From NCBI GenBank assembly GCA_006226595.1, contig SBGP01000093.1, positions 1 through 64,000 of the forward strand: DNA of 64,000 bases. The letters run 5' to 3'. The stretch comes from Deltaproteobacteria bacterium. Lineage in GTDB: Bacteria > Myxococcota_A > UBA796 > GCA-2862545. Below the pieces are notes generated by a model. The model worked only from the letters and a program-made list of their open reading frames with translations, did no database searches and was not told the origin of the DNA. Made by a program: the position numbers and the translations under genes. Within the stretch, counting starts at the first letter, position 1. Each line of letters starts with the position of its first letter. Below are positions 17,345 through 24,265 of the stretch, one piece after another.

Positions 17345-17352
17345 ATAGTATC
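17345..17352. promoter_or_regulatory. Bidirectional -10 element between regulator and lhgO
   Basis: Plus-strand ATAGTATC contains TAGTAT (17346-17351), a candidate -10 for lhgO. Its complement, GATACTAT, gives TACTAT, whose predicted +1 is exactly the GTG of the response regulator at 17338. One near-symmetric element may serve both directions. Confidence 0.45.
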
Positions 17353-17353
17353 C

Positions 17354-17374
17354 CACCTCACGGGAGGTGAGGTG
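17354..17374 (+). promoter_or_regulatory. Inverted repeat covering the lhgO ribosome site and start
   Basis: CACCTCAC (17354-17361) and GTGAGGTG (17367-17374) are perfect 8-base arms around a GGGAG loop. The right arm includes the GTG start codon and the loop holds most of the Shine-Dalgarno. It could be a DNA operator for the adjacent OmpR-type regulator or an RNA hairpin that limits translation of lhgO. Confidence 0.45.
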
Positions 17375-18571
17375 CGTACGGCAGACCTGGTGGTCGTGGG
17401 AGCCGGAGTGGTGGGGCTGGCGATCGCGCGTGCGGCGCTGGCCGCGGAGCCTTCGCTGCGCATCGAGGTCGTCGACAAGGAGCCGGCGGTGGCCGCGCAC
17501 GGCAGTGGTCGCAACAGCGGCGTGCTCCACAGCGGGGTCTACTACGCGGAGGGCACGCTCAAGGCCCGGTTCTGTCGGGACGGGAACGCCGCGTGGCGCG
17601 CGTGGTGTGCGGACAAGCGCGTGCCGGTCCGGTCCTGCGGCAAGGTGATCGTCGCGCGTAGCCTGAGCGAGCAGGCGGGCCTCGAGGAGCTTGCCCGTCG
17701 GGCCGATGCGGGAGGCGTGCGCGTCGAGTGGCTCGACGAAGCGCAGCTCGCCGAGGTCGAGCCCAGGGCGCGCACCGTCGGCAAGGCCCTGTTCTCGCCC
17801 GACACGGGCTCGGTGGACCCCCGCCGAGTGATGACCGAGCTTGCTGGCGAGCTGGCGGCGAAGGGTGTGCGCCTCACCCTCGGCAAAGCCTTCCACGGTC
17901 GCACCGGCGAGGTGCTCGACATCGGAGGCGAGCGGGTGACCGCGAGCCACGTGGTCAACGCCGCCGGGCTGCATGCGGATGTCGTCGCCAGGGAGTTCGG
18001 GGCGGGGGGGCGCTTCCGCTTGTTGCCCTTTCGGGGGCTGTACCTGTACGCGGATGCCTCGGCCGCACCGTTTCGCACCCACGTGTACCCGGTGCCCGAC
18101 CTGACCATGCCCTTCCTCGGCGTGCACGTGACCCTCACCGTGGATGGCAAGGCCAAGCTCGGGCCGACCGCGATGCCCGCGCTGTGGCGCGAGCAGTACG
18201 GGGGGCTCAGCGGCTTCTCGGCCGAAGAGGCCGCCCGCATCGGGCTCGGTCACCTCCAGCTGCTCGCGACCGACGCCTCCGCGCGTCGGCTGGGAGCCGC
18301 CGAGATCGCCAAGCTCTCCGCCCAGCGCTTGATCGAGGGAGCTCGGGGCCTGGTGCCCGATCTCGACCCGGCTCGCTGGAAGCAGTGGGGGCGTCCGGGT
18401 ATCCGCGCTCAGCTCGTCGACACCCACACGGGGCGGCTGCACATGGACTTCGCGGTCGAGGACGCCGAGCGCAGCACCCATGTGCTCAACGCGATCTCGC
18501 CGGCTTTTTCGTGTGCCCTGCCGTTTGGCGAGTACGTCGTCGCGCACCACCTACGCGGCACAGTGTTGTGA
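17372..18571 (+). CDS. lhgO: L-2-hydroxyglutarate oxidase (LhgO-like FAD enzyme)
   Basis: A 399-residue FAD-dependent oxidoreductase of the DAO superfamily that oxidises L-2-hydroxyglutarate to 2-oxoglutarate, normally passing electrons to the quinone pool. The dinucleotide fold is at the N-terminus (VVVGAGVVGLAIARA). The LhgO hallmarks SGRNSGVLHSGVYY and the late HTGRLHMDFAVE region are present, and length matches the family. GTG 17372 has GGGAGG four bases upstream, inside the loop of an inverted repeat. The 3' end overlaps the convergent TIGR02757 gene by 86 bases. D-amino-acid or glycerol-3-phosphate oxidation is less likely given the family-specific motifs. Confidence 0.9.
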   Translation: MRTADLVVVGAGVVGLAIARAALAAEPSLRIEVVDKEPAVAAHGSGRNSGVLHSGVYYAEGTLKARFCRDGNAAWRAWCADKRVPVRSCGKVIVARSLSEQAGLEELARRADAGGVRVEWLDEAQLAEVEPRARTVGKALFSPDTGSVDPRRVMTELAGELAAKGVRLTLGKAFHGRTGEVLDIGGERVTASHVVNAAGLHADVVAREFGAGGRFRLLPFRGLYLYADASAAPFRTHVYPVPDLTMPFLGVHVTLTVDGKAKLGPTAMPALWREQYGGLSGFSAEEAARIGLGHLQLLATDASARRLGAAEIAKLSAQRLIEGARGLVPDLDPARWKQWGRPGIRAQLVDTHTGRLHMDFAVEDAERSTHVLNAISPAFSCALPFGEYVVAHHLRGTVL

Positions 18572-19358
18572 GCGCGCACTCGGGGCAGATCGACGGTTCG
18601 TAGGCTCCGGTGCACGCTCCGCTGATGCCGAGGTGGGCGAGCGCGAAGTCGAAGCGCACCGGATCCTGGGGGTCGATGGCGGCGAGGGCACGCGTCACGT
18701 CTTCCGACGTGCGCCAGTTCGCGGTCTTGCGCTCGGTGAGCCCGGTGAGCAGCGCGATGCGGTGCACGTGGGTGTCGAGCGGGATGACCAGCCTGGCGGG
18801 AGACAGGTGGGTCCACAGCCCGAAGTCGATGCCGTCGCTCGGCCGAACCATCCACCGCAAGAACATGCACCAGCGCTTGCATGCCGAGCCCGAGCGAGGC
18901 GAAGCCAGGAAGGCGGTCATGCCGCGGGTGGGCGAGGGGAGCTCGTCGGCAAGTCTCCCGATGCCCGCGGAGAGCGCTTCGGCGGCAGTGTCGCCGCGAA
19001 AGTGGGAGGCGAGCGGCCCCGCCTCGAGCACGCGTCGCAGGCCCGTGGCGACTGCGAGGAAGTCTCCAGGCCAGATCCACCGGTAGTTGAGGGTGGCGAG
19101 CACTGTGGGCTGCTGGGCGTCGAAGCCACGAATCCACGCGTAGGGGCCTCCCGCCTCGTCGGCCTCTGCGAGGATCAGGTCGAGGGGCCGGGCGAAGCTC
19201 GCGACGCGCCCGAACGCCAGCTGCGACGCGAACAGCGCGGCGACCTCGATGTCGCGTGGGTCTTCGTAGCGATGCGCGAAGCGCACCGGGTCCGCGGCGA
19301 GCCGTGCGTCGACGTCCGTGGCGGCGAGCAGGGCGTCGAGAGACGCGGCGAGGGTCAT
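18486..19358 (-). CDS. TIGR02757 (DUF2400) family protein
   Basis: A 290-residue protein of a family with no established function. Recognisable are the EDPRDIEVAALFASQLAFGR start, CKRWCMFLRWMVR, and IPLDTHVHRIALLTGL. The C-terminal cysteines (C-x8-C-x2-C-x5-C around SGACTGAYEPSICPEC) resemble the iron-sulfur loop of HhH-GPD DNA glycosylases, and the LDTHVHRI segment also recalls that fold, but a glycosylase role is only inference. The ATG overlaps the stop of the fusion gene upstream (ATGA). The last 25 or so residues lie antisense to lhgO and are probably a species-specific tail. Confidence 0.85.
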   Translation of the reverse strand: MTLAASLDALLAATDVDARLAADPVRFAHRYEDPRDIEVAALFASQLAFGRVASFARPLDLILAEADEAGGPYAWIRGFDAQQPTVLATLNYRWIWPGDFLAVATGLRRVLEAGPLASHFRGDTAAEALSAGIGRLADELPSPTRGMTAFLASPRSGSACKRWCMFLRWMVRPSDGIDFGLWTHLSPARLVIPLDTHVHRIALLTGLTERKTANWRTSEDVTRALAAIDPQDPVRFDFALAHLGISGACTGAYEPSICPECALTTLCRVGGARRRTRQTAGHTKKPARSR

Positions 19359-20623
19359 GCGGCGTCGATCGCGCGGGCGAGTGCGAAGTCGAGGTCGGTG
19401 AGTCCGCCGCTGTCGTGCGTCGTGACCGCGAGCTTCACCCGGCCCCAGCCGAGCTCGATGTCCGGGTGGTGGTTCAGTACCTCGGCGCGGGCGGCGACGT
19501 GCTGCACGAACGCGTAGGCCTGCGCGAAGTCCGGGAACGACAGCTCGCGCACGAGATGGTCGCCGTCTCGGGACCACTCGGGGACCTCGGCGAGCTTCGC
19601 GCGGATGGCGTCGTCGTCGAGCAGCGTGGTGTCCGCGACGGCGCGCGGGGGTTCCGCGTCCCCGGGCACGGGGGTGGGATGCGCCGTGAGCATCGGGTGC
19701 GACAGGTGGTCCAGCGGGCCCCGCGGCAAGATGCGGTGCGGGTTCAGGCTCTCGTGGCTGCGGTGGTAGTGCTCGTGGATGTGGTCCATGCGCACGGTGC
19801 TCGCGACCTCTGGCATGGCCAGCATGCGCTCGAGCAGACCCTGCAGGTTGGCGTACTCCGTGATGTGCCGGCCGTTGCACTTGAAGTGCAGGTAGTAGAC
19901 GGGATCGAAGCGAAGCAGCGTGGTGAACAGGAAGATGTCCGCATCGGTGAGCTGGTCGCCGACAAGCCAGTGCTTGCCCTCCAGCTCGCGATCGAGGCGG
20001 TCGAGCTCGTCGAAGAGCTCCGCGAACGCGCGCTCGTAGGCGCCCTGGGACGTGGCGAAGCCGCATCGGTACACGCCGTTGTTCACGCGGTTGTAGAACC
20101 GCCGTGTCAGCGCATCGACCTCTTCCTGCAGCGCGAGCGGGGTGAGCGTGGTCCCGCCGACGAGTGCCGGCGCGAGCGCGCGATCGAACATGCGCACGAT
20201 CTCGGCGGACTCGTTGCTGACGATGCGCCCGGTCTTCAGGTCCCAGAGCACGGGAACGGTCACGCGGCTGGTGAGCCTGGGGTCGGCGGCGAGGTACACG
20301 TCCCGCAGGAAGCGGGCGCCGAGGTGAGGGTCGAGGTCGCAGCCGTCGCGGGTGGAGAAGTGCCAGCCTTCATCGGTCATGAACGGGTCGACGACGGTGA
20401 CGCCCACGTGGGGCTCGAGTCCGAGCAGGCTTCGCGCGATGAGCGTGCGATGTGCCCAAGGGCATGCGTAGCTCACGTAGAGGTGGTAGCGGCCGCTCTC
20501 TGGCCGGAACGGGCCGTCTGCGGTGATCGCCTCCCGGAACACCGAGGCGGAGCGCTCGAAGGCCCCCGAGGCGCTGCGCGACCACAGTCGCGTGGTCCAC
20601 CTGCCGTCGACGAGCTTGCCCAT
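19355..20623 (-). CDS. Glutathionyl-hydroquinone reductase fused to pterin-4a-carbinolamine dehydratase
   Basis: A 422-residue two-domain fusion. Residues 1 to about 325 are a Xi-class GST / glutathionyl-hydroquinone reductase (YqjG/PcpF type) with YACPWAHRT (Cys 54) and the family Tyr residues in FDPVYYLHF. Residues about 334-422 are a complete PCD/PhhB domain with the active-site set NHHPDI (His 385, 386) and TTHDSGG (His 403). The first reduces glutathionyl-quinones; the second dehydrates 4a-hydroxytetrahydrobiopterin. I know no established link between them; aromatic-ring or redox-cofactor repair is a guess. GGAGG precedes the ATG with normal spacing and the frame is continuous, so this is a true fusion rather than an overlap. 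Confidence 0.88.
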   Translation of the reverse strand: MGKLVDGRWTTRLWSRSASGAFERSASVFREAITADGPFRPESGRYHLYVSYACPWAHRTLIARSLLGLEPHVGVTVVDPFMTDEGWHFSTRDGCDLDPHLGARFLRDVYLAADPRLTSRVTVPVLWDLKTGRIVSNESAEIVRMFDRALAPALVGGTTLTPLALQEEVDALTRRFYNRVNNGVYRCGFATSQGAYERAFAELFDELDRLDRELEGKHWLVGDQLTDADIFLFTTLLRFDPVYYLHFKCNGRHITEYANLQGLLERMLAMPEVASTVRMDHIHEHYHRSHESLNPHRILPRGPLDHLSHPMLTAHPTPVPGDAEPPRAVADTTLLDDDAIRAKLAEVPEWSRDGDHLVRELSFPDFAQAYAFVQHVAARAEVLNHHPDIELGWGRVKLAVTTHDSGGLTDLDFALARAIDAA

Positions 20624-20652: not shown

Positions 20653-22356
20653 TCACCGGGGCTCGCAGCGGTTGAACGAGGCGTTGCACACCACGCGCAG
20701 GCGACGGCCCGCCTCTACGGTGATGCGACCGGCCACGACCCGGCCACGCTCCGGAAAGCTCGCCTCGATCACGTAGGTGCCTTCGGGGACGCGTCCCGGG
20801 GGAAACGAGCCCTGGTCGCCGATCAGCGTTGCCGAGATGTGGTCGCCGGTGATGGTGACCTGTCCGGAGTTCTTGCGCGTCACCTGGACCACTTCGACCG
20901 TCGCGGGCCGGGAGGGACGGGGGCGCGGGGTCGGCTCGTCCGTGCCGTCGCCTTCCTCGACGTCGCCTTCGGCAGGCTCCGCGTCGACCGACTCCTCCTC
21001 GTCGATCAGGCTCTGCTCCGGCTCGTGCAGGGACTTCGCGGGCTCGGGCACGCGGGTGTGGGCGCGGTTCACCGCAACCGTCGGGCGAGGGGGCGCGGGA
21101 GTCAGCGCCGCCATCACCATCGCACCCATGGTCATCAACACGAGTGCGAGGAGCACGACCGAGCCCACGGCCCAGGCGCGGCCTGCGAGCGTCTGCGGAT
21201 CCGGGGTGATGTCCCGGGTGGCGAGGTCGACCAGCGTCAGCGCAGGGCGCTCGGACCGGCTCTGCTCCTGCTCCTCGGTGTCCTGGCGCTGACCGGGCTG
21301 ACCCAGATCGTCCGTGTCCGTCGGGAGGCCGAAGGCGGGTGCGGCATCGTGGTAGCTGGCCTCTTCGTCGATCTCGTGCGCGGCGTGGCCCTCCTCGAGC
21401 AGGGCGCCGGAGAGCCGGTCGAGGGGGAGCCGAGGCACGCGCTCGACGACCATCGGGATCGAGCGTGCGGCCCAGGTCGCCAGCCCTTCGCCGCCGGCGG
21501 CGTCGCGTGCAGCGAGGGCCAGACGCTCGACGTCCCGCGACGCGGGTCGATCCTCCGGGTCGTACGCGAGCAGCGAGCCGACCAGGGACACGACCTCGGG
21601 GACCTTGCCCGCGGGCGTGCTCGCGAGCCGGTCCAGTCCCTCGCTGAGTCGCTTGTGGTGCCGAACCGGATTGCCACTGGCGCGACCGAAGGCCTCGCCG
21701 ACGAGGGCTTCGAACAGCAGGGTGCCGATGCTGTACACGTCGCCGGACGGGGAGTCGATGCCGTCGAGACGCTCGGGGGCCACGTAGTCCCACGAGCCGA
21801 AGCCGCGGTCGGTGGTGTTGGCCTCGCGGCGCTCGAAGTCCGCGGTGGCGATGCCGAAGTCGAGGATCTTCAGGGCACCCGAGGGCGGCACCTGGATGTT
21901 GCCCGGCTTGATGTCGCGGTGGAGGATGCGCAGCGGTCGCCCGTCCGGGCCCGGCGTGTTGTAGGCCTCGTACAACGCACTCGCGATCTCGGCGGCAATC
22001 TCGAGGGCGGCGGCGACGGGGAGGGGGCCGGCGGTCTTGATGCAATCCTTGAGGTTCGCCCCGGAGACGTACTCCATGATGATGGTCCAGTGCCCGCTGA
22101 GCTGGACCAGCCCATCGACCTGGACGATGGCGCGGTGGCGCACCATGCCGAGGATGCGCGCCTCGTCCCGCAGCCTGCGCAGGATCTCGTCGGCTCGCTT
22201 GTGCTTGCCGTGGAGCATCTTGAGCGCGACCTGTTTGGAAAAGCCCGCGCCGCCGAGCAGCTCCGCTCGGTACACGGTGCCGAATCCTCCCTGGCCGATG
22301 GGAGCGACGACCTGATAGCAGCGACCGCCTCCGGTGCCCTCGGTCACGGCACCCAC
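20653..22356 (-). CDS. Membrane Ser/Thr protein kinase (Hanks type) with C-terminal beta domain
   Basis: A 567-residue kinase. P-loop GQGGFG at 21-26, catalytic Lys 46 (VALK), HRDIKPGN at 146-153, DFG at 166-168 and WDYVAPERLDG are all present, so it should be active. After about residue 290 comes a low-complexity linker, then one TM helix (about 395-420), an acidic/Pro-rich stretch, and a C-terminal domain of about 90 residues (GRVPEGTYVIEASFPERG) that resembles PEGA-type surface domains. The topology is cytoplasmic kinase with an extracytoplasmic sensor. The GTG overlaps the stop of the secreted-protein gene upstream by 13 bases, suggesting co-translation. A second GTG three codons in is possible. 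Confidence 0.9.
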   Translation of the reverse strand: MGAVTEGTGGGRCYQVVAPIGQGGFGTVYRAELLGGAGFSKQVALKMLHGKHKRADEILRRLRDEARILGMVRHRAIVQVDGLVQLSGHWTIIMEYVSGANLKDCIKTAGPLPVAAALEIAAEIASALYEAYNTPGPDGRPLRILHRDIKPGNIQVPPSGALKILDFGIATADFERREANTTDRGFGSWDYVAPERLDGIDSPSGDVYSIGTLLFEALVGEAFGRASGNPVRHHKRLSEGLDRLASTPAGKVPEVVSLVGSLLAYDPEDRPASRDVERLALAARDAAGGEGLATWAARSIPMVVERVPRLPLDRLSGALLEEGHAAHEIDEEASYHDAAPAFGLPTDTDDLGQPGQRQDTEEQEQSRSERPALTLVDLATRDITPDPQTLAGRAWAVGSVVLLALVLMTMGAMVMAALTPAPPRPTVAVNRAHTRVPEPAKSLHEPEQSLIDEEESVDAEPAEGDVEEGDGTDEPTPRPRPSRPATVEVVQVTRKNSGQVTITGDHISATLIGDQGSFPPGRVPEGTYVIEASFPERGRVVAGRITVEAGRRLRVVCNASFNRCEPR

Positions 22357-23237
22357 GCCGGCATGGACGAGTCGGGGAGCACGGCGACGGTGCCCAGGCC
22401 CACGGCGGTCAGGGTGAGCAGCTCGAACCCGAAGAACTGGCGATTCGCCTTGCCCTTGAGGGCCGCGAGGTCTTCGTAGGGCGTGCTCGTGTCCTTGAAC
22501 TCGGCGCGGTTGCCGAGGCTGGCGTTGAGCAGCGCAATGCCGCCCACCAGCGCCACGGCGGCACCGCCTCCCGCGACGACCCGGCGCGTGGGGAAGCTTC
22601 CGCCGCCGCTCCGGCTCGAGCCCGCGCCATGGCCGACGCGCTCGCTGGGCTCCTTCGTGCGCGTCACCTTGGTCTTGCGGGTCGCGTCACTGGGCGCACC
22701 CATGCCCGGGAGCAGGTAGCCGGAGTAGGTGACCTCGCCCTGCTTGCGGACCTGGAGGAGTGCGGGCACTTCGCGCGGGCGCAGGCCCGTGCCGCGTCCG
22801 TCGACCCAGGTGTCCGCATCGTTCATGTTCAGCGGGTCCTGCGGCGACGGAGATGCCTCGCGAGCGCGGTCGAACTGCACGCGCAGCGGGTGACCCGCGG
22901 GGGCGATGTTGGACGGCAGGTCGTAGTCGGGCTGCAGCTCGTGGGCCCGGCGGAAGCTCGCGTAGGCGCCGACCTCGTCGCTGTTCGCGAATGCCGCGAG
23001 CGCCTCGAGCCGGTGGTACGCGGCGGCATCCTTGGGGGCGACCACGCCGGAGAGGCAGCCGAGTGCGGTTCGCGCCTTGTCCCGGGTCTGGCGGAACGCG
23101 TCGAGATCCATGCGGTCGAAGTCACCCATCGCCCGCTCGTAGAACCCGGAGAGGTCCTTGCCCGTCGAGGGGCACGGGTCCTGCGCAAGGGCGGGGACGG
23201 CGAGGACGAGGGCAAGGCTGAGAGCAAGCGTGCGCAT
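22344..23237 (-). CDS. Secreted or membrane-anchored protein of unknown function
   Basis: A 297-residue protein with a clear signal peptide (MRTLALSLALVLAVPALAQ). The N-terminal half is helical and TPR-like (YHRLEALAAFANSDEVGAYASFRRAHELQPDY is spread over two predicted helices), then a basic Ser/Gly-rich linker and two C-terminal hydrophobic segments (about residues 220-240 and 270-287). It overlaps the Ser/Thr kinase gene downstream, so it may be a partner or substrate of that kinase. ATG 23237 has no ribosome site; a TAACCT hexamer (23244-23249) places +1 at the A of the ATG. No family was recognised. Confidence 0.7.
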   Translation of the reverse strand: MRTLALSLALVLAVPALAQDPCPSTGKDLSGFYERAMGDFDRMDLDAFRQTRDKARTALGCLSGVVAPKDAAAYHRLEALAAFANSDEVGAYASFRRAHELQPDYDLPSNIAPAGHPLRVQFDRAREASPSPQDPLNMNDADTWVDGRGTGLRPREVPALLQVRKQGEVTYSGYLLPGMGAPSDATRKTKVTRTKEPSERVGHGAGSSRSGGGSFPTRRVVAGGGAAVALVGGIALLNASLGNRAEFKDTSTPYEDLAALKGKANRQFFGFELLTLTAVGLGTVAVLPDSSMPAWVP

Positions 23238-23290: not shown

Positions 23291-24265
23291 ATGGCCTGGT
23301 CTCGCATCTGCGCTGCTGTCCTTGCCGGTTCGCTGCTGGCGGCACCGAGCGTTGCCAGGGAGCGTGACCTGCCGGAGTTCGGCTGGGATTGGGGCACCGG
23401 TCGCCGTTACTTCCTCGAGTCCAGCGTCGGCGGCGTGGTGATGATGTTCTCCGCGGACAAGAACCGCGACGTCGTCATTCGCCAGTTCACGACCCAGATG
23501 GTGGTGAACTGCCACGACCCCGAGCGCACGGGCCGCCGCAGCTACGAGGTCCGCTGCGACATCGAGGACTTCGCGATCCAGGCCATGCCGCGCCCCTCCG
23601 AGGCGGGCCTGCTGCAGATCGTGCTCGAGGAGGTCGAGGCAAAGCTCGAGGACGGCGCGTGGCTGCAGGTGAGGATGCGCGACGACGGGCAGCTGATCAA
23701 CTTCCAGCTCGAGGACTACCAGGCGCGCTTCCGAGACCAGAACCGCATGGCCGAGAACGTGCGCCTCATCCTCATGCGCAGCTTCGCCGGCCTCGATCTG
23801 CGCCTGCCGACGCGAGCCCTCGACCGCGAGCAGGGCGTGTGGGGCCAGACCGAGAGCACGATCACCATGTACCCCTCGGCGCTCGGCACCGCGGGCAGCG
23901 TCGAGATGGCGAACCTGGCGACGAAGCGCAGCGATGACTGGGTCGTGATCGAGACCGCTGCGCGGGCGACCATCTCGCCCCAGGCAGGAAAGGACACCTA
24001 CGCGACTCGGGTCGAGGCCCGAGCGGTGTTCGACATGGCCCAGGGGTACATGGTCGAGCGCATCTGGGTCGCCGAGGGCTGGGCCACCGCGGGCTCCGCA
24101 TCGGCCGAGGCGGGCGTGCGCCCCTACGCCCAGGCCGGTCGCCTGTTCGTGATCGAGCCGACCAGTGCGTCACCGGTGCTCATGGACACCATCGAGCTCG
24201 CCCCCAAGCCGACGCAGTTCTCGGACAAGGAGGCGACGGGTGGGCTCGCGCCGGCCGGCAACTGA
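23291..24265 (+). CDS. Secreted protein of unknown function
   Basis: A 324-residue protein with a signal peptide (AAVLAGSLLAAPSVARERDL). The mature part is beta-rich and acidic, with two Cys residues (VNCHDPERTG and RCDIEDF) about 18 residues apart that may pair in the periplasm. There are no TM segments. GGAGG lies eight bases before the ATG. The 3' end overlaps the small zinc-ribbon gene by 26 bases, so the two are in one transcript. It is divergent from the kinase operon with 53 bases between. I recognise no family. Confidence 0.7.
   Translation: MAWSRICAAVLAGSLLAAPSVARERDLPEFGWDWGTGRRYFLESSVGGVVMMFSADKNRDVVIRQFTTQMVVNCHDPERTGRRSYEVRCDIEDFAIQAMPRPSEAGLLQIVLEEVEAKLEDGAWLQVRMRDDGQLINFQLEDYQARFRDQNRMAENVRLILMRSFAGLDLRLPTRALDREQGVWGQTESTITMYPSALGTAGSVEMANLATKRSDDWVVIETAARATISPQAGKDTYATRVEARAVFDMAQGYMVERIWVAEGWATAGSASAEAGVRPYAQAGRLFVIEPTSASPVLMDTIELAPKPTQFSDKEATGGLAPAGN

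Follow-up and report, generated by a model that had tools for sequence, protein, structure and literature searches.

Organization of the fused gene

The window, that is the whole stretch of 64,000 nucleotides of contig SBGP01000093.1 (Deltaproteobacteria bacterium, assembly GCA_006226595.1) that was analysed, carries on its minus strand at 19355-20623 a single open reading frame with an ATG start and no internal stops, encoding 422 amino acids followed by a stop codon. In Pfam searches the protein exceeded the curated cut-offs for GST_N_2 at residues 53-148, GST_C_2 (also GST_C) at 194-265 and Pterin_4a at 334-421. Three parts are distinguished, all on the minus strand: a glutathionyl-hydroquinone reductase (GHR), or Xi-class GST, half (residues 1-310; 19694-20623) delimited by Pfam, matches to solved GHRs, the AlphaFold model and structural matches; a linker (residues 311-333; 19625-19693) taken from the AlphaFold model; and a pterin-4a-carbinolamine dehydratase (PCD) half (residues 334-421; 19361-19624) delimited by Pfam, NCBIfam and a PCD search of the genome. 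The initial annotation, which gave no strand, had read here one frame with both enzymes complete, and this is borne out by the open reading frame, Pfam, the NCBIfam model NF002017, the matches to solved GHRs and an ortholog of equal architecture in a second species of the genus (genome G001). The fusion is genuine: a complete GHR is followed, after a short linker for which disorder is predicted, by an equally complete PCD. An internal start yielding free PCD was considered and rejected, since Met311 of the window protein is absent from the G001 protein and no internal start is conserved.

Residues 1-310 matched the solved GHRs YqjG (E 2.5e-93) and PcpF (E 1.6e-87), the best solved relatives of this half being E. 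coli YqjG and other Xi-class GSTs (E 1e-84 to 1e-93). The hallmarks of GHRs are the catalytic cysteine of a CPWA motif and a tyrosine triad, formed in YqjG by Tyr195, Tyr253 and Tyr296 (PMC5063366). Alignment with YqjG confirmed Cys54, already singled out in the initial annotation, as the cysteine of CPWA (codon 20462-20464) and assigned the triad to Tyr185 (YqjG Tyr195; codon 20069-20071), Tyr243 (YqjG Tyr253; codon 19895-19897) and Tyr286 (YqjG Tyr296; codon 19766-19768), all on the minus strand, and the cysteine and all three tyrosines are present in both species. The Xi fold extends over the full length of this half, the best PDB structural matches all being Xi-class GSTs with an rmsd of 1.2-2.4 Å for most of them, while the PCD half is absent among the 50 structural matches listed because the larger GHR half dominates. 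A further criterion of the class is a Xi-specific dimer formed by way of the helical domain. The fused GHR is not the sole GHR of either species, since both genomes have a separate one, that of G001 being more distant. The unfused GHR of the window genome (G000:C3:15287-16174) is 49% identical to the fused GHR and lacks the HY neighbourhood of the YqjG Tyr296 equivalent, reading RRGY-ASI in the alignment.

The C-terminal half scored 97 bits with Pterin_4a (cut-off 26) and 104 bits with the NCBIfam equivalog NF002017 for 4a-hydroxytetrahydrobiopterin dehydratase (cut-off 80), and its best solved relatives include several PCDs. The active-site signature of PCD (COG2154), which Naponelli and colleagues are said to have defined in 2008, reportedly reads [EDKH]x3H[HN][PCS]x5-6[YWF]x9[HW]x8-15D. 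In this form it is complete, by motif match, in the window protein at residues 381-412 (EVLNHHPDIELGWGRVKLAVTTHDSGGLTDLD; 19388-19483, minus strand) and also in G001, and it encloses both NHHPDI and TTHDSGG, the motifs by which the domain had first been recognised.

Conservation in a sister species and gene neighbourhood

The comparison within the genus is with G001, the sole second genome of the genus examined. It encodes a fusion of the same two domains, 59% identical across residues 1-421, and the window and G001 have a common gene order consisting of an L-2-hydroxyglutarate oxidase-like gene, a DUF2400 gene, the fusion and a Ser/Thr kinase gene. The downstream gene (18486-19358, minus strand), assigned to DUF2400/TIGR02757 by Pfam and NCBIfam, overlaps the TGA of the fusion with its ATG as ATGA, and the overlap is the same in G001. 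The upstream gene (20653-22356, minus strand) encodes by Pfam a Ser/Thr protein kinase, has the same position in G001 and is separated from the fusion by 29 bases in the window, the gap being 27-29 bases across both species. As the ATGA overlap and the short kinase gap recur in both species, the kinase, fusion and DUF2400 genes probably form one transcript. The L-2-hydroxyglutarate oxidase-like gene (17345-18571, plus strand; Pfam and NCBIfam), whose start codon is not fixed, is convergent and likewise has the same position in G001.

In favour of a sequencing or assembly error joining two frames there is the draft state of the window genome (117 contigs). However, architecture, linker and synteny are the same in the genome of an independent species, and the recurrence there of the fusion with the same neighbours and ATGA overlap excludes a frameshift or misassembly for practical purposes, leaving to such an error a negligible probability.

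Two further observations concern the surrounding genes. The DUF2400/TIGR02757 protein (18486-19358, minus strand) has a C-terminal C-x8-C-x2-C-x5-C pattern, resembling the iron-sulphur loop of EndoIII-type glycosylases, and weakly matched the model of a monofunctional DNA glycosylase. Two divergent genes, at 22344-23237 and 23291-24265, adjoin the kinase gene, and neither product has a Pfam match.

Occurrence of the fused architecture

The whole protein was searched against 71 genomes of the class, and the whole protein and the junction (residues 240-422) against 379 genomes of the phylum; the junction query is the better test of the phylum because the whole-protein search had a strict threshold there. 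A single match spanning both halves was obtained in two genomes only, those of the window species and G001, and in the rest of the 71 class genomes GHR and PCD, where present, are encoded separately. No plasmid or phage record covering 80% of the query was found, and the viral contigs were likewise devoid of the fusion. When about 85,000 species genomes were scanned with the fused protein, the best 80 loci listed all matched through the GHR half alone, and no PCD was found near them within the available flank (up to 5 kb). A literature search, most subscription journals being outside its reach, found no paper naming both enzymes. The GHR-PCD architecture appears rare, and the initial view that such a fusion is not known to have been described has stood up, the architecture not being common in any collection searched. 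It is best read as a lineage-specific fusion built from two known enzymes and conserved in one genus.

Long frames upstream of other PCDs of the class were inspected as candidates for further fusions, and nine of the ten stretches were judged by eye to be out-of-phase translation of GC-rich DNA. The tenth, in genome G009, which belongs to the same family as the window genome, held a true Glyoxalase_6 domain, a PCD forming there the C-terminal half of another fusion with a Glyoxalase_6/VOC-like N-terminus (L026:856-1731, G009:C163). PCD seems in this respect to join other proteins readily, which, along with the confinement of the GHR fusion to one genus among the genomes searched and the lack of any context link of GHR and PCD elsewhere among the best 80 GHR loci listed, speaks for a neutral event, in which two genes would have been joined by chance without functional gain and the product kept since both activities were kept. 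On the other hand, the fusion has been retained while the two species diverged by about one synonymous substitution per site, and a neutral origin is given a serious chance, somewhat short of even.

Pterin and glutathione context of the two genomes

Phenylalanine hydroxylase (PAH) is the classical partner of PCD; many bacteria retain PCD without it. No PAH (PF00351) was found in the window genome or in G001. Both genomes yielded a single PCD, the fused one, which must therefore supply any PCD function that they need. In the class a standalone PCD in the absence of PAH is a common situation (PCD in 53 and PAH in 23 of the 71 genomes). Eight direct neighbours of standalone PCDs in the class were scanned and proved mutually unrelated, giving no functional clue; they include helicases, a phosphomutase, a transglycosylase and an FMN reductase, and two have no match.

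PCD has been proposed to take part in molybdenum-cofactor metabolism, according to a passage of PMC3223725 that cites Naponelli 2008. PF00384 proteins occur in both genomes, MoaC is present in the window genome, and none was found in G001, whose draft genome is 97% complete. The glutathione-synthetase domain match is strong in the window genome and weak in G001, so that the thiol used by G001 may or may not be glutathione. The missing MoaC match and the weak glutathione-synthetase match of G001 may reflect draft gaps or true loss, and with PAH found in neither genome the supply of substrates to both halves is, as a result, unproven there.

The initial annotation had also suggested that the two enzymes jointly repair oxidised ring cofactors or act in aromatic-ring metabolism. 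This suggestion found no support in the neighbours of the fusion, among which, barring the L-2-hydroxyglutarate oxidase-like gene, there are no genes of pterin, quinone-ring or aromatic metabolism, nor in the PAH search or the best 80 GHR loci. A joint role in ring-cofactor repair is possible and nothing observed favours it. In one version the protein would be a dedicated repair enzyme, its GSH-dependent reductase and its pterin dehydratase working in turn on ring cofactors of one class, oxidised or glutathionylated, and PCD would have a role that requires no aromatic amino-acid hydroxylase; this is considered highly improbable.

Predicted structure and selection on the two halves

The AlphaFold model of the fused protein, computed as a monomer, has a mean pLDDT of 91.7 with only residues 314-329, in the linker, below 50, and predicts a flexible linker with no fixed interface between the halves. 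This bears on the possibility of coupled active sites, by which the halves would treat one class of oxidised ring compound (e.g. a pterin or quinone in glutathionylated or oxidised form) in succession. Such coupling would agree with the frequent use of gene fusion as a signal of functional linkage, with redox-active ring compounds being substrates of both halves and with the only PCD of each genome being joined to a GHR while PAH is absent. It is nevertheless unlikely, given the predicted flexibility of the linker without a fixed interface, the absence of PCD beside any of the best 80 GHRs listed and the standalone PCDs that are common without PAH in the class.

Between the two species, dN/dS by the Nei-Gojobori method lay near 0.26 in the GHR half and near 0.48 in the PCD half, both values being rough since dS, at about 1.1, exceeds 1, and purifying selection acts on both halves. 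The PCD half is 42% identical between the species, against 63-66% for the GHR half and the genes next to the fusion. It is under weaker constraint than the GHR half, yet within range, because a standalone PCD pair of another genus (G003/G015, 54% identity) reaches a dN/dS of 0.62. In the GHR tree the two GHR halves cluster at 100/99 support. In the PCD tree the branch leading to the PCD half of G001 is long (1.48 changes per column), and its grouping with the PCD half of the window is not clear; a shared ancestry of the fused PCDs was not obtained from this tree, the domain being too short and the G001 branch too long.

The faster divergence of the PCD half and the long G001 branch, as well as the failure to find PAH in either genome, could be taken to mean that this half has lost pterin turnover and serves the GHR half as a dimerisation or binding module, comparable to the DCoH role of animal PCD. 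The catalytic signature is, however, intact in both species, and the standalone congeneric pair G003/G015 evolves equally fast, which makes a loss of catalysis rather unlikely. Divergence to 42% identity, along with the long branch, does suggest that the substrate or role of the PCD half may differ.

Proposed function

The explanation held to be probable is a bifunctional protein that arose by gene fusion in the ancestor of the genus, its halves being an ordinary GHR and an ordinary PCD that would act independently of each other; both enzymatic activities and the independence of the halves are deduced from sequence. In the GHR half, Cys54 would attack the thioether of a glutathionyl-hydroquinone to form a mixed disulfide with glutathione, from which a second glutathione would then release it. 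In the PCD half, HHP and the later His would act in acid-base catalysis, dehydrating 4a-hydroxytetrahydropterins to quinonoid dihydropterin. With a flexible linker between them, each half would be able to fold and oligomerise separately, and the benefit of the fusion is, on this model, probably co-expression or co-location rather than channelling, which is without support given the flexibility predicted for the linker and the lack of any indicated interface.

A genus with its sole PCD attached to a GHR provides a handle on why bacteria keep PCD without PAH, and the fused protein could show whether PCD serves pterins there at all and whether it is in any way connected with quinone detoxification. 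Should the two halves prove independent, the finding would amount only to a domain-architecture curiosity.

Comparison with known systems

The N-terminal half resembles YqjG and Sphingobium chlorophenolicum PcpF in its CPWA cysteine, tyrosine triad, fold, length and about 50% identity, but the known solved members of this kind stop near residue 310-330, whereas the window protein continues with a linker and a PCD domain. The C-terminal half is like PCD (PhhB, COG2154, NF002017) over its whole length and in its active-site signature, but PCD is usually a free protein of about 100 amino acids, in contrast to the window copy, which is fused and belongs to a genome without phenylalanine hydroxylase. 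The Glyoxalase_6-PCD fusion of G009 shares with the window fusion the C-terminal position of PCD in a protein of two domains, and differs from it in its N-terminal partner, which is VOC/glyoxalase-like and not a GST, and in its locus.
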